DNA of 64,000 bases from Sphaerolaimus hirsutus (taxonomy: Eukaryota > Nematoda > Chromadorea > Monhysterida > Sphaerolaimidae), in assembly GCA_964036195.1 (NCBI GenBank), contig OZ038450.1, positions 12,216,701-12,280,700 on the forward strand, in the 5' to 3' direction. Both the position numbers and the translations under genes were made by a program. The notes beneath the pieces were generated by a model. The model searched no databases. It saw only the letters and a program-made list of their open reading frames with translations, and was not told the origin of the DNA. Positions within the stretch are counted from its first letter, which is position 1, and each line of letters begins with the position of its first letter. Below, one piece after another: positions 8,515 to 53,508 of this stretch.

Positions 8515-8677
8515 GGGCCCCACACACACTAGTTGATATCGACACCAAATGTCAACTGGTTCTGATCCCAATTCAAAGCTTGCTGACGAGCCGACGAATG
8601 ACGTTTAAATGCAAGCTTGGAATTGGGATCGGAACCAGTTGACATTTGGTGTCGATGTCAACTAGTGTGTGTGGGGG
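8515..8677. mobile_element. Palindromic MITE, family H (CACACACTAGTTGACA)
   Basis: Nearly perfect palindrome. Each arm of about 70 bp runs from GGGCCCCACACACACTAGTT to an AAGCTT-containing centre, with only a short loop. A close second copy lies at 10057-10221; relatives with the same ends but different interiors lie at 20104, 37337, 39660 and 40149. No open frame. Confidence 0.8.
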
Positions 8678-8887
8678 CATACCAACAACGATGGCAAAAA
8701 CACACATATTAAATACAGAAACACGGAAACTCAAAAATTTCGATAAACTCAAAACTCTAATGAGTTTTTATTGGAGAACACGGAAACTCAGAAAACACAG
8801 GAAATTTAAAAAAGAAGTTTTTCATTGGATCCCACACTATACTGTGTTGAACTGAAGAAAGTAAGATAAAATGTGCATGTGTATACT

Positions 8888-9140
8888 CTGCGTACATAAT
8901 ACTCTGCCCTCGCACTGATTTATGTCTCGTGTTGGAAGTGTGCCAATGATTATTAAATCATGCGATTTCTGTAAAAGTATGAAAAAAATTCATCGATGTG
9001 AATATGTTAATGAATGACGATATAACAACAATCAATTTTGCCATCTTTTTCTGAAACTCGGACGCGTTAACCATCGTTGGCACACTTCCAGCGGGAACCA
9101 CGCGTGCAGGGTGTAAAGTAACCGGAGTATACATGTCAAT
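8888..9140. repeat. Dispersed repeat, copy 1
   Basis: Shares order and sequence with 31242-31475: an ATACTCTGCC start, then TGTCTC(A/G)(C/T)GTTGGAAG, and ACCACGCGTGCAGGGTGTAA near the end. No inverted ends or open frame are seen; class unknown. Confidence 0.5.
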
Positions 9141-10056
9141 AGATAAATGCATGGTAAAATGCGCATGTGTACATGTCAATAGATTGATGCATATATTAAG
9201 TTTCCAATGTTTAAGTATCCAAAAAGTGCTGATGCAAATCTTTAAAAGTTTCAAGTTCTTGTGATAATTGTTGAAGCAAATAGGCTTTTGTCAATTCGCA
9301 CAATTTCACTTGAGCGTTCTAAGTGTGTCAGCAACCACTGGTGTTTATGTTTATATGTCGTCATTTACAGACCCTGTTAAATTTCATGTAAAGTGTAAAC
9401 ACTCAAGTAAAATGTCATGGAAAATACGAAGTGTAATGTAAAAAACAGTAAATTTGACATTATACAGGACTTTTCACATTTCAAAAGCATCTTACAAACT
9501 TTCAGGAAGCCCCCTGAACCTGCATAAGCCAATTCGTTTTAAGAAAACCACTGTTTCTACATCGAAACACTGCTTCTGGTTAAAAACTGGAGTTTTCACC
9601 AAAAACACAGAAACATAGAAACTCAAACACAGAAAGTGTTCATTTTAAAAGCCATCGTTGCATACCACATGATGTTCTTGATCGGCACTTTGCGGCAGAA
9701 AAGTTGACTGAATTTAATATATTTTTTTATGTACCTAACAACCTATTAGAAAGTTGTACTATAATTTACCTAGTAAACAACAATTTCGGAATGAGTGACA
9801 AAGTAATGGGTATATTAACGAAATACGTAAATTAATACTATAGATATAAACTTTTCTACGTTCAATAGAGTACCATTCCTCGATGATCCTCGTTACAAAA
9901 TATTCACATGACACAAATACAATTGTTTACCAGCATCACCACTCTGAAGCAAAACAAGGAAAAAATGATATCACAACACAGAATGATAGAGAATGATAAA
10001 TAGCAAACGACCTGTCGTAGTGCAGAGCACCGCTGCAGCTGGGCGATGGAAACAAT

Positions 10057-10221
10057 GACCCAACACACACACTAGTTGACATCGACACCAAATGTCAACT
10101 GGTTCCGATCCCAATTTCAAGCTTTCAATTGAACGTCATTCGTTGGCTCGTCAGCAAGCTTTGAATTGGAATCGGAACCAGTTGACATTTGGTGTCGATG
10201 TCAATTAGTGTGTGTGGGTCC
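10057..10221. mobile_element. Palindromic MITE, family H
   Basis: Second close copy of the 8515-8677 palindrome, with about 75-bp arms. The centre differs (AATTGAACGTC), so the loop evolves faster than the arms. Confidence 0.8.
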
Positions 10222-11542: not shown

Positions 11543-14500
11543 CTAGAACCACGAGCAGCAGCTGTTCATTTTGCGCGCCTGCGTGTAGAACATCTTGCTC
11601 TGGGCGCTGAGCTCCTCGGACTTGCCCACCAAGTCGTCCAGCTTCTCGCCCCTGTCCAGCACCGACGCGATGGTATTATGCAATATGACTTTAGTCTCGT
11701 CGATTTCCGTCTGCACTTTGGTCAGTGCGTCCGCCTGCGCCGGGTTTTGGTACTTTGCCAACAGGGCGTCCAGTCCGTTGTAGGGGGCCGAGTTCTCGGC
11801 CAGACTGCTCCATTGCCGTCTTTCCACTGTGATCGTAAAGTCCTCCAGGACCTGGATGGGTGATGGGGTAAGTGAGGAGTTTGGTTCCGTAACCCGTTAA
11901 GTGCAAAAGTGAAAAAAATTGAGTTAAGTGCGGATCTGACATATATATATATATTTCTTCATGATAGAACAAAAATTTTCTCAATATCTCATACCGTTCC
12001 CGAGATACAGAGATGGCGTTTTTTGAAAAAAATGCAAGTTTGCATCCAAAACCCGTTATCTGCAGCCCAAAATAGGCGAGTTTGCACTCGAAACCCGTTA
12101 TCTACAAAAAAAACTATCATTTTTTGCACCCGAAACTCGTTATCTGCAGAGAAAAAAGTTTGCATCCGAAACTCGTTAAGGATTTAGTATGGAGGTGTCA
12201 AAATCACCATACAAAAATGGAGTTTGCATCCGAAACTCGTTAAGGAAATCTGTACTGGTTTTTATGAATTTGCATCCGAAACTCGTTATCTGCAGGTGAC
12301 TTTGCACCCGAAACTCGTTATCTGCAGGTGACTTTGCACCCGAAACTCGTTATCTGCAGGTGACTTTGCACCCGAAACTCGTTATCTGCAGGTGACTTTG
12401 CACCCGAAACTCGTTATCTCCACATGACTTTTTATTTGAATAACTCCACTTGTGAACATTTTTATGGAGTGGTGCTAGGGGCACCAAAATCATGCCATTT
12501 TCATGGAATGGTGCTAGGGGCACCAAAATAATGCCATTTTTATGGAGTGGTGCTAGGGGCACCAAAATCATGCCATTTTCATGGAATGGTGCTAGGAGCA
12601 CCAAAATAGTGCCATTTTCATGGAGTGGTGCTAGGGGTGCCAAAATAGTGCCATTTTCATGGAATAGTGCTAGGGGCACCAAAATATTGCCATTTTTATG
12701 GAGTGGTGCTAGGGGCACCAAAATCACGCCATTTTCATGGAATGGTGCTAGGGGCACCAAAATAGTGCCATTTTCATGGAATGGTGCTAGGGGCACCAAA
12801 ATAGTGCCATTTTCATGGAGTGGTGCTAGGGGTGCCAAAATAGTGCCATTTTTGTTGGAGTGGTGCTAGGGTCACCAAAATCATGCCATTTTCATGGAAT
12901 GGTGCTAGGGGCACCGAAATAGTGCCATTTTCATGGAATGGTGCTAGGGGCACCAAAATAGTGCCATTTTCATGGAATGGTGCTAGGGGCACCAAAATAG
13001 TGCCATTTTCATGGAGTGGTGCTAAGGGTGCCAAAATGGTGCCATTTTTGTTGGAGTGGTGCTAGGGTCACCAAAATCATGCCATTTTCATGAAATGGTG
13101 CTAGGGGCGCCAAAATAATGCCATTTTTATGGAGTGGTGCTAGGGGCACCAAAATCATGCCATTTTCATGGAATGGTGCTAGGGGCACCAAAATAGTGCC
13201 ATTTTCATGGAATGGTGCTAGGGGCACCAAAATAGTGCCATTTTCATGGAATGGTGCTAGTGGCACCAAAATAGTGCCATTTTTATGGAGTGGTGCTAGG
13301 GGTGCCAAAATGGTGCCATTTTTGTTGGAGTGGTGCTAGGGTCACCAAAATCACACCATTTTCATGGAATGGTGCTAGGGGCACCAAAATAGTGCCATTT
13401 TCATGGAATGGTGCTAGGGGCACCAAAACAGTGCCATTTTCATGGAATGGTTCTAGGGGCACCAAAATAGTGCCATTTTCATGGAGTGGTGCTAGGGGTG
13501 CCAAAATGGTGCCATTTTTGTTGGAGTGGTGCTAGGGTCACCAAAATCATGCCATTTTTATGGAGTGGTGCTAGGGGCACCAAAATCATGCCATTTTCAT
13601 GGAATGGTGCTAGGGGCACCAAAATAGTGCCATTTTCATGGAATGGTGCTAGGGGCACCAAAATAGTGCCATTTTCATGGAGTGGTGCTAGGGGTGCCAA
13701 AATAGTGCCATTTTTGTTGGAGTGGTGCTAGCATCACCAAAATCACGCCATTTTCATGGAATGGTGCTAGGGGCACCAAAATAGTGCCATTTTCATGGAA
13801 TGGTGCTAGGGGTACCATAATAGTGCCATTTTCATGGAATGGTGCTAGGGGCACCAAAATAGTGCCATTTTCATGGAGTGGTGCTAGGGGTGCCAAAATG
13901 GTGCCATTTTTGTTGGAGTGGTGCTAGGGTCACCAAAATCACGCCATTTTCATGGAATGGTGCTAGGGGCACCAAAATAGTGCCATTTTCATGGAATGGT
14001 GCTAGGGGCACCATAATAGTGCCATTTTCATGGAATGGTGCTAGGGGCACCAAAATAGTGCCATTTTCATGGAGTGGTGCTAGGGGTGCCAAAATGGTAC
14101 CATTTTTGTTGGAGTGGTGCTAGGGTCACCAAAATCACGCCATTTTCATGGAATGGTGCTAGGGGCACCAAAATAGTGCCATTTTCATGGAATGGTGCTA
14201 GGGGCACCAAAACAGTGCCATTTTCATGGAATGGTGCTAGGGGCACCAAAATCTTGCCATTTTCATGGAATGGTGCTAGGGGAACCAAAATAGTGCCATT
14301 TTTATGGAGTGGCATTAGTTGCATGAAAATTGTGCTATTGTCATAGAATGTTGCTACAGATACCAATGTTGTGGCATTCATGTGGAATGGTGTTATTCTT
14401 ATGAAATGGTGCTATAGACTCTGTAATTGTCAATTCTCATTTGTACCACAATGTTTTTTTGTTCATTTGTATGTTCACATGTGAGTAAAATGTTAAAAGT

Positions 14501-17500
14501 TTACCAGATCCAAAATTTGCATTTTTGCATTGGGGTCACCCATTAAAAATCCCATTTCCAGACTCAGAAAAATCACTGTAAAATGACTAATTCCCTATGA
14601 AATGTCAAAAAGAAATATAAAAGATTCTGTAAAATGACAAAAATCACACAAAGAACATTAAAAATGATAAAAAAAACAGTTAAATAAAATAAAAAAGTAA
14701 AATGACCAAATCCAAGAAGGCATGTAGAAAATGGATTATAAACATTTTACCAGATCATAATAATCCATGTGTGTTGCAATGTGTAGTCATAGAAGTAGTA
14801 TATTCCATTACATTTGCATTACTCACAGTTTGTTGTTTGTTCTTCATGTTTAGACATTCTGTTTTAGGTGATTTTCAGTCATTTTTGATTTCTGTTTCAT
14901 TTATGCTTTTTTCACCCACTGTGATGCAAGCCTTACCTGACATAAAGCACTATTTAAAAAATTGAATGCATCAACATTCCACACGACCAGTACTTTTTAA
15001 GGTTTTTTTAACACAACATTTCTTGGAGAAACACACATCGAAACCATTTTTAAACCCTCAGCTAACATTTTTAGTACTCATGCACTGGGTTTTTTCTTCA
15101 TTTTTTGCACTAAGGGACACAACTTCACTTACACATTACCTTTGATATTGCTTTCATTGGTTTTGAGGAATTTTTAGTGCAAAAGCTTCCATTTGTTCAT
15201 TCTATTGTGTAAAAAAACTGCAATATGTTAGTATAATTTAATACATCCAGCCAGTGTGTGCCCACATACTTCTACAGTGTAAAACATAACTTTCAATGTA
15301 CCTATTATAACCCAAGTCTAACACCATTCCATAAAAATGGTGCAAGTATGGTGCCCCTAGCGCCACTCCATAAAATTGGTTAAGTTGGGTGCCTCTAAAG
15401 CCATTCCATAAAAATGGCACTATTTTGGCACCCCTAAAGCCACTCCATAAAAATGGCATGAGTTTGGCACTGCTAGTGCCACTCCATAAAAATGGGATGA
15501 GTTTGGTGGCCCTAGAGCCATTCCATAAAGATGGTGTGACTTTGGTGCCCCTTGCACCATTCCATAAACATTTGCACATGTTTGGCACCCTTACTGCCAC
15601 TCCTTGAAAATGGCGCGAGTTTGGCGCCCCTAGCACCACAATAAAAATGGTGTGAGTTTGGTGCTCCTAGAATCACTTCATAACAATGGCATGAGTTTGG
15701 TGCCCTTGTGCCATTCCATAAAAATGGTGGGATTTTGGAACCGCTAGTGCCATTCCATAAAAATGGTGCTATTTTGGAACCCCTAGCACCACTCCATAAA
15801 AATGGTGCTATTTTGGTGCCCCTGGCACCATTCCATTAAAATGGCACTATTTTGGTGCCCCTAATGCCACTCCATAAAAAATGTCACTATTTTGGTGCCC
15901 CTAGCACCACTCCATAGAAATGGTGCTATTTTGGCGCCCCTAGCACCATTCCATGAAAATGGCGTGATTTTGGCGCCCCTAGCACCATTCCATGAAAATG
16001 GCATGATTTTGGTACCCCTAATGCCACTCCATCAAAATGGCACTATTTTGGTGCCCCTAATGCCACTACATAAAAATGGCACTATTTTGGTGCCCCTAAT
16101 GCCACTCCATAAAAAATGTCACTATTTTCGCACCCCTAGCACCACTCCATAAAAATGGCACTATTTTGGTACCCTTAGCACCACTCCATAAAAATGGCAC
16201 TATTTTAGCGCCCCTAGCACCATTCCATGAAAATGGCGTGATCTTGGTGCCCCTAGCACCATTGCATAAAAATGGCACCGTTTTGGTGCCCCTAGCACCA
16301 CTCCATAAAAACAGCACTATTTTGGTGCCCCTAATGCCACTCCATAAAAATGGCACTTTTTTGGTGCCCCTAATGCCACTCCATAAAATGGCACTATTTT
16401 GGTGCCCCTAGCACCACTCCATAAAAATGGCACTATTTTGGCGCCCCAAGCACCATTGCATAAAAATGGCACCATTTTGGTGCCCCTAATGCCACTCCAT
16501 AAAAATGGCACTATTTCGGTGCCCCTAATGCCACTCCATAAAATGGCACTATTTTGGTGCCCCTAGCACCACTCCATAAAAATGGCAATATTTGGTGCCC
16601 CTAATGCCACTCCATAAAAATGGCACTATTTTGGTGCCCCTAATGCCACTCCATAAAAATGGCACTATTTTGGTGCCCCTAATGCCACTCCATAAAATGG
16701 CACTATTTTGGTGCCCCTAGCACCACTCCATAAAAATGGCAATATTTTGGTGCCCCTAATGCCACTCCATAAAAATGGCACTATTTTGGTGCCCCTAATG
16801 CCACTCCATAAAAATAGCAATATTTTGGTGCCCCTAATGCCACTCCATAAAAATGGCACTATTTTGGTGCCCCTAATGCCACTCCATAAAAATGGCGCTA
16901 TTTTGGTGCCCCTAATGCCACTCCATAAAAATGGCGCTATTTTGGCTCCCCTAGCACCATTCCATGAAAATGGCGTGATTTTGGCGCCCCTAGCACCATT
17001 CCATGCAAATGGCATGATTTTGGCGCCCCTATCACCATTCCATGAAAATGGCATGATTTTGGTACCCCTAATGCCACTCCATAAAAATGGCACTATTTTG
17101 GTGCCTCTAGCACCACTCCATAGAAATGGAACTATTTTGGCACCCCTAGCACCATTCCATGAAAATGGCGTGATTTTGGCGCCCCTAGCACCATTCCATG
17201 AAAATGGTGTGATTTTGGTACCCCTAATGCCACTCCATAAAAATGGCGCTATTTTGGTGCCCCTAATGCCACTCCATAAAAATGGCACTATTTTGGTGCC
17301 TCTAGCACCACTCCATAGAAATGGAACTATTTTGGCACCCCTAGCACCATTCCATGAAAATGGCGTGATTTTGGCGCCCCTAGCACCATTCCATGAAAAT
17401 GGAGTGATTTTGGTACCCCTAATGCCACTCCATAAAAATGGCACTATTTTGGTGCCTCTAGCACCACTCCATAGAAATGGAACTATTTTGGCACCCCTAG

Positions 17501-29032: not shown

Positions 29033-32000
29033 ATGACCAAGCGCGACGGCACCATGAAGCGGCTGGCGCAGTCGGCCAACCAGACGCTGCGCAGGTCCAT
29101 CGGCTCCCACACCCGTGAGTTTTTGGGCCTGCGTAAGCACCTCTGTGTTTGTATGTTCGGCTTTCCGTTGGACCTTGTTTTTTTCGGCGTATGCCTATTC
29201 CGCATTTTGGCCTATTCCGCATTTTGGCCCATCCCGCACATTTAGCTGCCCATCCCGCATTTTGGCCTATCCCAGGGACGTATCCAGGATTTTTGAGCGG
29301 GGGGGCTGCTTGTTTACGCAGCCCGGCGAGGGGGGGGGGCTCAGCCCCCCCCCCCTAAAATTTTCCCTACATGGTGGCGGAATAGCGTCATGGCGTTGGC
29401 GCCATTCGTAGGCGCCACGCCATGGCGCCATTGGCGTTGGCGTCAGCGCCATGGAACGCTGTATATGTATGTTAATTTACATACAAAACAGCAAAAAGCA
29501 CAATATTTTTAATGATTTGCGGCCACATGGAGCAAATCTGATGATAATACCTTATATCTGGTGAAGAATGCGCGCTTGCGCGCAAAATTTTTTACGCTGG
29601 CGTTGAAAAAGTCGCATTTTCTGGTCACTTTCTGGTCTCGCCCCGGGAGGGGGGGGGGCTGCAGCCCCCCCCCGCCCCCCCTGGATACGGCCCTGGCCTA
29701 TCCCGCATCTTGCCGGTGTAATGTGCGAGATAGGCAGTGTGCGTGATGGGTTTGTGTGCGGGATAGGTCAAAATGCGGAATATTGCACTCTTGGTATGGA
29801 ACTCCCAATGTGCGCCGCACGTGCAAATCACACGCGACGCATGTCAATTGCCCCCCCACAGTTGCCCCCCCATACTTAATTGCTTATCCGGACGGACAGC
29901 TAAATAGATAAACGGCGAAATAATTATAAAATTAGGAACGTAGATACGATGTTGATGCCGCTCAGATGCATTACAAATCAACGTTGCTAATATTGATTTA
30001 AGTTCAATTAATATTGATTTAAGACGTTGAGCTTAGGCATGCACATTGTGGCCTTGAACTCCCTGAAAAATTCAGTCATTTTGGAGTTTTTAAAATTCGA
30101 ATTTTTGATATTTTTGAAAGATGAATCGATTTTTATGCGTTTCACCTCGTGATCAAAAATTCGAAAAGGCCAAAAAAATGGAAAATTCAAAAATGTTTTC
30201 AAATCTTTGTTTTGCCTTCGTTAGTGAATACTGCAACCATTTTTATGAACATGTTTTGCACCTGCGTCAATAAATATTCAAAGTTGTAATGAGGAACTCC
30301 AAAAAGTCTTTTTGAATTTTTCAGGGAATTCAAGGCCCCAATGTGCATGCCTAAGCTCAACGTCTTTATTTAACTTAAATCAATATCAACAACATTGACT
30401 TGTAATGCATCTGAACGGCATCAACATCGTATCTATGTTCCTAATTTTATAATTATTTAGCCGTTTATCTATTAAACTGTCCGTCCGGATAACGTCTTTT
30501 ATATTGCTGCCGGAAAACAATTTGCAATACCTGAGCAATTAAGTGATTATTGTGTGGGCAGTTCACGGCTGATAATATTTTAATTGATCAGCGCCAACCG
30601 CGAACTGCCCACACAATAATCACTTAATTGCGCAACATGCAATTAAGTATGTGGGGGCAACTGTGGGGGGGGGGGGCAATTGACATGCGTCGCGTGTGAT
30701 TTGCACGTGCGGCGCACATGGGGAGTTCCATACCAACAGTGCACTATTCCGCATTTTGGCCTATCCCGCACACAAACCCATCACGCACACTGCCTATCTC
30801 GCACATTACACCGGCAAGATGCGGGATAGGCCAAAATGCGGGATGGGCAGCTAAATGTGCGGGATGGGCCAAAATGCGGAATAGGCCAAAATGCGGAATA
30901 GTGCACCGTCGTTTTTTTCAGATGACGGTATAAAGCCCTGTAAATTGTAAGTCGATTGTCCAATGTCATACAAATTTGTCGATTGTCGCACAGTGATAAT
31001 TTTTTGTATTTATTGACATTTTGCATGGAATTTCACTTTTACAGGGCTCGGGACTGCCCCTAGGTGAAAAGTGACGAGCAAATTTGTAAATACATGAAGT
31101 GTACCATCAAGTGAGCTTTGAGGCAACTAAATTTAGAACGGAGCATTTGTCACCTAAAAGCTAGTCATTTTTGTACGGTTTCGGAATTGGCATCAACCAA
31201 CTACTTGGCACCCGTGCACAGTTTGGTGGTATACTCGTCCGACACGATACTCTGCCATCGCACTCATCTATGTCTCACGTTGGAAGCGTGCCAATGAAGA
31301 TGAAGCATCTGATTTTTGTATAAAAGATGAATAAATCATTGTCGTGAATAAGTTAACGTATATCGTTATAACAGAGATGACTTTTTGAACTTTTTATGAA
31401 AATCGCATGGGTAACAAAACTGTTGGCGCGATTCCAGCGAGAACCACGCGTGCAGGGTGTAAAGTGACTGGAGTATACCTACTTCAGCCCTACATAGACT
31501 CCCTTTCTAACCCATCTCCCCAACGCAGAGTCTGCAGCGCAACTAGACCCAGGGCACTCTTCGGCGCGTTACACGGGCGCCCTGAACAAGCAATGGAGGC
31601 ACCCGCCCGACGCGCTGATCTACGGCCGCGTCGAGTACACGGTCAAGTTCTTGGGCGAGTGCGAGGTGGCCGCCGCCAAGGGAACTACTGTGGTTAAGGA
31701 GGCTGTTGAGGTGAGTCACTGGGGGGACTGGTTTGGAGGGTTTTGTGGTGGAGATTGGTGTTGTTGAGGGCGGATCGGTTTTTGATGTGAATCGAAATAA
31801 ACTCCAACCACAAAAATAATTGGATCAATAATATAAATTACATAATTGACTGGATGGCTGGGCCAGGGGTCTCCTAGGGGGGGGGCTGGGGGGGGGGGCT
31901 GCCCCCCCCCCAAATCGGCCAGCTATCTATCTATCCCGGAGGCCGCTCAGCTATCTATCTATCCCGAGGCAAAATTTTTGGCTACTACCCCCAAAGACCC

Positions 32001-35000
32001 CCCCCCCCCCCAAATCGCTCAGCTATCTATCTATCTGGAGTGGTTTTTGAGAAATTTTGCCCCAATTTTCGCTCAAAATCACCAATTTTCGCACTTTTTT
32101 ATAGTTTTTCACCTTCAAAATCGTGCTTTCCGGCTATATACATGGTTATATACCTATTTTTAGCCATTTTATACCTACTTTTGGCTACTTTTAACAGATT
32201 CTTAGCGATTTTTTCCCCTTTCTGCCTTCTTAACCTTGAAAAAGCCGATACATTGTGCCCCCGCCAGCCCCCCCCCCCAAGCCCCCCCCCAGCCCCCCCC
32301 CAGAAAATTTTTTCAGCTATCTATCCCTCCGGAGGAGCGATTTGCTATCTATCCAGCCCCCGCGAGGGCCAAAATCCTGGAGACCCCTGGGCTCGGCGTA
32401 TTCATCATCCAAAGAGTGGCCATCGAAAGTGAACTATAAAGTTACAAATACTGATAGTCATAAGTATCTGTGTGTGTATTCATGCCGCAGCGCTGACTGG
32501 GGCGGAGCCGACATAAATTTTCAATTTAGATAATTTAATGAGATGTGGTACTGTTTTTAAGCAATAGTAATATGTACCTTTCCTGTTTTTTTGCTAAAAT
32601 TAACTACGAAAATATTTAGGTGTTTATTTTTACTACTAGACTAGGTATATAATCATTTGAAATTCAGTTTTATACTATTTTTACAGAAACTCCGCTACCG
32701 GCTTCAGCTGGAAAAGACAGCCAGTGGCAAGGGCTGGACCAAGCTGAAAAAGGTCGACATTCACATCAACATCGAAGGTGTTTCTATCATAGACGGGAAA
32801 TCGAGTGTCGTCCTTTACAAATACCCGCTACACAGGATATCATTCTGTGCTGACGATAAGCAGGTTTGACAAAACTGATTTATAGCCTACCGGCTGCACA
32901 TTTCGCTGTACTGTACCGTAACCCGTTTGAGTAAAGAATCAAAAATAAAATGATTTTAACAACCATTACATTTCATTATGGGACGATTTAACACCGACTT
33001 CATCAAATTATGGTATCATTCTGTACAAAGCATGCCGTCCGGCAACTATACCATATTTGTGCTCCTATTTAGGGACGCTGACATGCTCCCCCCCCAACCA
33101 CAGGACCGTCGGGTATTCGCATTCATCGCAAAGCGGGCCGACTGCGACCGGCACGACTGCTACGTATTCTCGCACTCTGAGAAGGCTGAAGAGATCACCC
33201 TCACAGTGGGCGAGGCGTTCGACCTGGCCTACAGGTGCCAGTTCCAGACCCTGTAAAATGCCCTGTAAAATGTCAAATGTCATGCAAAGTGTAAAAAGTC
33301 ATGTAAAATGCACTGCAAAATGTAAAACGTCATGCAAAGTGTCAAAAGTCATGTAAAATGCCCTGCAAAATGGCAAACGTACGTTGGCAACAGGGAATTT
33401 TACATGACTTTTGACACTTTGCATGACATTTGACTATTTACAAAGCATTTTACAGGGTCTGGGATTGGCCTACAGGAAGTTCCTGGAGCGCAGCGGCAGG
33501 GACATGTCGTCGCACAAGCAGCTGCTCGTGCTGCAGCGGCGCATAGCCCAGCTGGAACAAGAGAATGACATGTTGAAGGCTGAGAACGCCCGGCTCAGGG
33601 CGGCCGAGAACTTTGGTGATGGGTGAGTGTGTGCGTGGCATGACTCAGCTGTATTCTTGATTTTGACCCTGCGAAGGGGTTGGATCGATAGGAAATCGCT
33701 CCTGCGGATAGATAGTTGAAAAAATGGGGTGGGGGGTTGCGGGGGTTCAATGTATAGGCTTTTTGGAAGGTGTAGAAGGAAGAAAAAAACAAAAAAATCG
33801 CTAGAAGTAGGTGAAATATAGCTAAAATGGGTATATAAGCACATATAGCACAAAAAGTTGAAAATAGGAAATAAAACACATGAACTAGTGATTTTGAAGG
33901 TGCAAATCTATTTTCAAAAAGTATGAAAATTACCGATTTTGAGTGAAAATTACGGTAAAATGTTTCAAAAATCGCGCCAGATAGGTAAATAGCTGTGCGC
34001 TTTGGAAGGGGTTCAGGGGGTAGTAGCCAAAAAAATTGCCACCGGCATTGTTATGGATAAATAGTTGAGCGGCCTGCGGGATAGATACCTAGAATGCTGG
34101 GCGTTTGGGGGGGGGGTACCCCCATAGATACCAACCCATCGCAGGCGCGCCGACCACCGGTCTACAGAGCAGTCGACTAGCGCTGCGAGATCACAGTGGA
34201 CCGGTTTCCACGAAGCGGGCGGGCAGGCGGCCGCGCTCAACAACGACTGCTACGGCATGGACGTGTCGCACAGTTATGAAACTGCAAACGGTGCCGTGGG
34301 CATGGCACCCGCGCTACCCGACACTCCGGTGCCAAAGGGCCCGCCACAGGGGTTCTCTTCAGCTGTAACCGCAGGTTTGTTGTGTTTGAGGCCCAGAAGA
34401 CAGTCCCGGACCCTGTAAAATGTCATGCAAAGTTAGGGTTCAAACGATATGACTTTTCGACATCGATATTCGATATTCGATTTTTTTTCTGAAACTCGAT
34501 ATTCGATATCGATACGATATGGAACCTCGATATCGATATTCGATATAAAAAAATGGTCGATATTCGATATTTTTGATATTCGATATTGCAATTTGCTTTT
34601 GGTATAGCAAGGCATATTTCAAGTGACATATTGTATTTTCATGTGGTTGCACGCATGGTTAATCATCTCTTTAGTTAAATGTGAATTGTACAAGTGATTT
34701 TAACAAGGTTTACATCACTCAAAAGTAGAACGTATCCGATAAGAATATCCGATATTCGATATTCGATACGATATATCGTTTGAACCCTATGCAAAGTGCC
34801 AAAAGTTATGTAAAAATGCCCTGCAAGATGGCAAACGTACGTTTGCCATTTTGCAGGGCATATTACATGAACGTTTGCGTTTGCGTTTACAGTTTGCGAA
34901 ACGGAGCTAGCGTCAGAACTGTTTTACATTCATTTGCTTGTTCAGGTATTTGCTATAGTTTACCATTGTAACAATGACATTGTTATTCTATCTACCATCT

Positions 35001-37165: not shown

Positions 37166-44061
<6,896 letters not shown>

Positions 44062-44336: not shown

Positions 44337-47499
<3,163 letters not shown>

Positions 47500-49846: not shown

Positions 49847-53508
<3,662 letters not shown>

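Follow-up and report, generated by a model that had tools for sequence, protein, structure and literature searches.

Probable origin of a CED-6/GULP1 intron from a DNA-transposon introner inserted at CAG in the nematode Sphaerolaimus hirsutus

The CED-6/GULP1 intron at 33235-33475 of the window (the whole stretch of 64,000 nucleotides analysed here) is very likely an introner, that is, a non-autonomous inverted-repeat DNA transposon inserted in a coding exon at CAG. The element has copies elsewhere in the genome, its target is CNG with a duplicated middle base, and proteins are restored when the flanks of copies are joined. Because the element is mobile, we infer that the intron was gained, and because domains are restored across the joins, the copies in coding sequence are presumably spliced out. 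In this introner family, the C(A/T)G target would itself form both the exon end and the acceptor.

Behind an exon ending ...GACCTGGCCTACAG at 33234, the CED-6 intron opens with GTGCCAGTTCCAGACCCTG (33235) and closes with CAGGGTCTGGGATTGGCCTACAG (33475), and it is an inverted-repeat element from splice site to splice site, with arms of 79 nt that are 89% complementary (Table 1). Its RNA folds into a long hairpin of -125.9 kcal/mol (z -15.3), which none of 200 shuffles equalled; this fold and the genome copies place the inverted-repeat structure far above chance. The direct repeat TGGCCTACAG(G) lies at the end of the exon and again at the end of the intron. With the intron removed, the junction is gap-free in the alignment to human GULP1 (PDB 6itu, E 2.9e-45); the intron lies in phase 2 and splits the AG^G codon for Arg in LAY-R-KFL. 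The best-scoring named relatives of this CED-6 are nematodes. A sequence-only reading of this DNA had claimed that the intron runs end to end of an inverted-repeat element, that the same ten bases close exon and intron, and that removal leaves the end of the PTB domain intact, and all of this agrees with the arm pairing, the repeat and the alignment.

Table 1. Positions in the window of the CED-6 introner, its surroundings and related elements
Feature	Position	Strand	Evidence
CED-6/GULP1 exon, ends ...DLAY(AG), PTB domain end	33104..33234	+	sequence; 6itu alignment
Target CAG, 5' copy of the presumed 3-bp target duplication	33232..33234	+	
Introner element GTGC-CAGTTCC ... GGGATTG-GCCTA, putative source of the 5' splice site	33235..33472	+	
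Left inverted-repeat arm, CED-6 introner	33237..33315	+	
Right inverted-repeat arm, CED-6 introner	33391..33469	-	
Target CAG, 3' copy, the final 3 intron bases and putative source of the 3' splice site	33473..33475	+	
Extended direct repeat TGGCCTACAGG, exon copy	33225..33235	+	
Extended direct repeat TGGCCTACAGG, intron copy, probably copied secondarily from the exon end	33466..33476	+	
Next CED-6 exon, (G)KFLERSGRD...	33476..33622	+	sequence; 6itu alignment
Second introner-derived intron, CDK5 (SSAL-R|EICLL), GTGACAATCCC ... GGGACTGCCC-CAG	46508..46893	-	
Sister element with a different interior, nested in the CDK5 introner; ends GTGC-CAGTTCC ... GGAACTG-TCCC	46574..46805	-	
Third element, nested-type interior, within the last CDK5 intron, away from splice sites	44484..44663	+	
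Degenerate family member GTGG-CAGTCCC ... GGGAATG-CCC	52594..52746	+	
Degenerate family member GTGG-CAGTTCC ... GAACTG-CCC	43000..43200	+	
Family member in a later CED-6 intron, split by a subsequent AT-rich insertion	34401..34870	+	

The assembly that was searched comprises 348 Mb in 762 contigs. The CED-6 element gave 4231 first-look candidates genome-wide, 40 of which were scored to yield 94 matches. The copy set was drawn from 30 search loci and 14 further places (44 in all); after four duplicates and three lacking one end were dropped, 37 oriented copies were left. These are asymmetric, typically with CNG and GTGC-CAGTYCC on one side and GGGACTG-CCCC and CNG on the other, and their CNG targets are mainly CAG or CTG. 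Two later samples, taken at plus-strand places blind to the flanks, consisted of 40 exact-CTG A-end copies (36 distinct) and 20 exact-CAG ones (19 distinct).

We hypothesize that the transposase inserts the element at C(A/T)G and that this target is duplicated in the process. The left end GTGC would then turn the exon into CAG^GTGC, a 5' splice site whose donor GT comes from the element, and the C-run of the right end would give CCCC followed by the duplicated CAG, that is, a pyrimidine run and a 3' splice site. An insertion at CAG would produce CAG^GTGC...CCCC-CAG^ and thereby an immediate intron that leaves the reading frame intact once removed; as it would carry both splice sites, it could be taken out of the mRNA with the protein unchanged. 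An insertion at CTG would be without AG, and genic copies of this kind would later acquire AG or remain damaging.

This proposal can be set against the copies that lie in coding sequence. The flanks of the 37 copies were joined, a long open sense frame through each join was taken blind to homology (the frame of L015 was picked separately), and the frames, with three antisense ones besides, were scanned with Pfam. A domain lies across the join in the sense frame of 10/37 copies: PID in L001, a Di19-type zinc finger in L004, actin-like in L006, PHD in L012, I-set in L015, eL40 in L023, cullin in L024, VWA in L025, WD40 in L030 and ZP-N in L041, the zinc finger and the cullin falling below Pfam's cut-off. 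The actin-like join is presumably ARP6-like. In L013 a leucine-rich repeat starts just past the join, and for L038 the Pfam scan gave no demonstrated match spanning it. In another frame, a TIL domain (L029) and an Srx receptor (L002) lie across the join, as does CTR9 on the other strand of L032, where the right end reads CAG^GTGG, bringing the original set to 13 of 37. The same right end, CCACCTG and hence CAG^GTGG on the other strand with an open frame there, was observed in L083/L084, L110 and L111 as well as in L032; the frames of the first three places gave 0 Pfam matches, and homology was confirmed for L032 only.

From the later samples, joins that looked coding were picked by eye for the scan (20 of 36 in the CTG sample, 10 of 19 in the CAG sample). 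Domains lie across the join in 4/20 of the former (BRO1 in L079, Mon2 in L093, Med8 in L112, a permease in L116) and in 2/10 of the latter (a homeodomain in L125, Piwi in L135). Since frames were chosen and the antisense was scanned only in part, these counts, like that of the original set, should be taken as lower bounds, not as rates. The introner of L125 splits a Hox-like homeodomain at KYQ|TLELEKEF. Including CDK5, a domain is restored across the join at 20 loci, 15 of which start with GT or GC and end with AG. L015, in an immunoglobulin-domain gene, is a coding introner with a GC donor (CAG^GCGC). As in GULP1 and CDK5, the junction is gap-free in the alignments of eL40 and CTR9, the latter having a gap elsewhere. 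The introns of these 20 loci, in unrelated genes, are alike out to both splice boundaries, which is a hallmark of introners, and their inverted repeats and target duplication are those expected from transposition. The earlier reading had taken the CED-6 intron for a mobile element inserted in coding DNA at CAG^G, one splice site (the donor GT) coming from the element and the other (the acceptor AG) from the duplicated target, and had suggested a genome search for like elements at intron boundaries. This interpretation is supported, and other genome copies do occupy exon junctions.

Save for its middle base, C(A/T)G reads alike on the two strands, and therefore CAG and CTG are expected to be equally frequent across the two orientations. 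Among exact A-ends, 395 carry CAG and 270 CTG (0 of each in the backwards control), an excess with a binomial p of 1.4e-6 if copies are independent, some of them being duplicates; it could come partly from a preference of the transposase. In the later samples, among copies with both ends present, the 3' end has AG in 9/30 with a 5' CTG and TG in 2/16 with a 5' CAG. The coding 5'-CTG copies L024, L079 and L093 have CAG or TAG at the 3' end, which suggests a T changed to A under selection for AG, a possible rescue; the change may instead have occurred in the exon copy. Their arm identity is 0.72-0.74, the lowest of 19 measured, with arm identity serving as a rough clock since hairpin arms can convert.

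The other five of the 20 supported coding copies end without AG (L002 in ATG, L006 in TCG, and L029, L112 and L116 in CTG). In L006, and likewise in L034, a cyclin B-like join matched on its downstream side only, an in-frame AG lies 9 nt upstream, and its use would lengthen the protein by three residues. For L002, L029, L112 and L116, the nearest stop-free in-frame AGs within 75 nt would delete 14, 22, 10 and 11 residues. With arm identities of 0.88-0.95, these four copies may be recent, damaging insertions and possibly heterozygous ones. Copies with and without AG were not distinguished by a codon score (mean sense 7.2 and 7.7, respectively).

Such copies bear on a different explanation, that removal of this family's introns is independent of their last bases and occurs through a hairpin-aided, relaxed choice of 3' splice site or through precise DNA excision. 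We consider this improbable. It would account for L002, L029, L112 and L116, which restore domains though ATG- or CTG-ended and with no domain-sparing in-frame AG near; it fits the strong hairpin predicted for the CED-6 intron, and it has a parallel in Amoebophrya, whose hairpin-forming introners, bordered by repeats of 3-5 nt, end non-canonically (PMC7789003). However, the AG at the 3' end of L024, L079 and L093 suggests selection for AG, the closely matching arms of the non-AG copies are those of insertions that may be young and harmful, and L006 and L034 have an AG within reach. The narrower proposal that hairpin-forming introners are removed from transcripts though ending in TG, the AG rule being escaped through hairpin-joined ends, also seems unlikely to us, if slightly less so. 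If it were true, a CTG insertion would be nearly as harmless as a CAG one, and essential genes of the Med8 type would have GT-TG introns.

The window holds further members of the family (Table 1). CDK5 is a minus-strand gene at 44.3-47.5 kb with seven exons by tblastn, hence six introns. Its second intron, 46893 to 46508, starts GTGACAATCCCGGACCC, ends GGGACTGCCC-CAG and lies in phase 2 in an AGG Arg codon; without it, the protein aligns gap-free to 1h4l (E 1.3e-48). The element nested within has CAG flanks when read on the minus strand, corresponding to plus-strand CTG at 46571-46573 and 46806-46808, and the third element is likewise flanked by CAG (44481-44483 and 44664-44666). In the annotated parts of CED-6 and CDK5, 2/12 introns are introner-derived end to end, and the other ten read GT/AG. 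Among the named relatives of this CDK5 are arthropods and nematodes at about 83%, followed closely by other animals; unnamed relatives reach up to 86%, and a rice entry of 56% tops the score. Taken with the CED-6 relatives and the occurrence of an Srx-type receptor, this makes an ecdysozoan host likely.

That the CED-6 element landed in an old intron, the rest of which eroded away, and that the intron position is ancient, is very unlikely. Elements do sit inside longer introns at 44484-44663 (CDK5) and 34401-34870 (CED-6), and further ones lie in window DNA without gene annotation. Against this, the CED-6 and CDK5 elements extend exactly from one splice site to the other and are bordered by CAG at each end, and the same end-to-end fit is seen at the eL40, Mon2, Piwi, BRO1 and homeodomain joins.

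Other repeats were observed in the window. The insert within the split family member of the later CED-6 intron is an AT-rich GATATTCGATAT-type sequence at 34433-34790. Just upstream of CED-6, at 29698-30829, there is a long inverted repeat of 1132 bp end to end, the outer 22 nt of whose arms are perfectly complementary and which contains more near-perfect pairs inside. The stretches 8636-10101 and 13978-15422 likewise hold long inverted-repeat structures whose ends are perfect or nearly so; in the second, there are several left copies in tandem. Repeats of the CAGCTATCTATCTATCC type, containing long runs of C or G, occur in two CED-6 introns (31870-32340 and 33680-34130) and also upstream of CDK5.

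Concerning the duplicated target, with the 3' end placed blind, base -2 is the same on both sides in 31/37 copies, as compared with 17.2 expected by pairing with other copies; at a fixed offset, it agrees in 25/37 (13.2 expected), and with the two later samples added, in 62/83 (36.0 expected). An agreement of 33/37 against 18.0 was set aside in favour of the blind count, since placing the 3' end by matching the 5' side inflates it. Bases -1 (G) and -3 (C) hardly vary and therefore have no signal of their own, and at bases -4 to -8 agreement in the 83 copies is no higher than expected. As the middle base covaries and nothing further out does, the duplication is probably of about 3 bp, and a 3-bp CNG target duplication, its full length extrapolated from the one covarying base, is the simplest reading. 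Single ATG/ATG, CCG/CCG and CGG/CGG pairs among the copies are in line with this length. A 2-bp duplication was dropped for 3 bp given the C at -3 and the ATG/ATG pair of L002, and a 5-bp CCWGG target, suggested by the copies in the window, failed in the wider copy set.

The target duplication of 10 bp that had first been read from CED-6 thus did not hold up: base -2 alone covaries, and none of bases -4 to -8 does so beyond expectation. Repeats of at least 8 bp occur in 3/83 copies (10 bp in CED-6 and L013, 8 bp in L112), where cross-pairs (21/6806) predict 0.26. A hAT-like or Mutator-like transposon with a target duplication of 8-10 bp, for which these three copies would speak, is the least probable source, since the 8-11 bp duplication typical of such elements is contradicted by a repeat shorter than 8 bp in 80/83 copies, covariation is confined to base -2, and cross-pairs also reach 8 to 10. 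The ten bases of CED-6 can be dissected into TG, the inverted-repeat end (GGGACTG in the family), CAG, the target, and GCCTA between them, which is identical to the 5' exon and occupies the place of CCCC in other copies. This extended repeat falls outside the prediction of the 3-bp rule; it looks like a later event, in which repair probably copied the exon end secondarily onto the element's right end.

Among PHIS transposons, the NuwaI group is marked by its CWG target duplication (Han et al. 2015, PMC4482050). The copies are flanked by CNG at either end, the middle base being duplicated, and a 5'-CWG-3' duplication of the presumed 3-bp length would be that of NuwaI; the element may therefore work like a NuwaI-mobilised MITE, and its membership of the group is a candidate assignment. 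NuwaI is described from animals only, with inverted repeats usually starting with GGG, compared with GGGG at the right end and GTGC at the left end here. A genome search with PF13359 (DDE transposase) gave 163 matches, 150 of 306 candidates being scored. Unlike for NuwaI, a matching transposase was not found among the PF13359 groups checked, namely an abundant family and, from a second group, two copies. Its ends, GGGGCC, rule out the abundant Harbinger family (L045-L074) as helper, and both copies checked of the second group are without introner ends. L045-L074 (for example L069, 1-3315) is a high-copy Harbinger-like transposon with DDE_Tnp_4, ending in GTGTGCGYGGGGCC beside AWT-like flanks; most copies are 97-100% identical to L069, and most matches cross four in-frame TGA, which probably lie in an intron of the transposase gene.

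In a 2022 survey, DNA-transposon introners were found in only two animal groups, copepods being among the hosts (Gozashti et al. 2022, PMC9860276), and nematodes go unmentioned in its main text. The present family is like those introners in its repeated introns, inverted repeats and target duplication, and like the type of Fig. 2C there in that the element would supply the 5' splice site and a 3' one be co-opted. The repeats given there are of 3-9 bp for earlier families and of 4 or 8 bp in the legend of Fig. 2. It differs in that here the C(A/T)G target would be both exon end and acceptor, with the CTG copies as a built-in control. Hairpin-forming inverted repeats that unite the exon ends are shared with the introners of Amoebophrya, which have boundary direct repeats of 3-5 nt (PMC7789003); that organism, however, is a protist in which more than 60% of introns are non-canonical, whereas here 15/20 supported coding copies end in AG. 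For another animal, Fritillaria borealis, introner insertion and weak splice sites have been discussed together (PMC13326754), but 95% of its introns escape GT/AG, while the other annotated introns of CED-6 and CDK5 read GT/AG. Nematode introns are the subject of other work (PMC9169325). The words intron and nematode are absent from the main text of the NuwaI paper (PMC4482050), and in the literature on introners, PHIS/NuwaI and intron gain by MITEs, no title or abstract opening among the papers found ties a CWG-target transposon to introns.

In summary, our analysis points to an introner family in an animal, and in animals introners are seldom found. Horizontal transfer of introners is reportedly the subject of a 2025 PNAS paper. 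CAG is in general the commonest exon end, which hints at the reason why transposons with a CWG target do well as introners. Since CAG insertions would carry an acceptor and CTG ones would not, the family provides a natural experiment on intron gain, made testable by one element and one near-palindromic target. Whether genic CTG copies disappear, change to AG or are removed without an AG would be a direct measure of splice-site selection.
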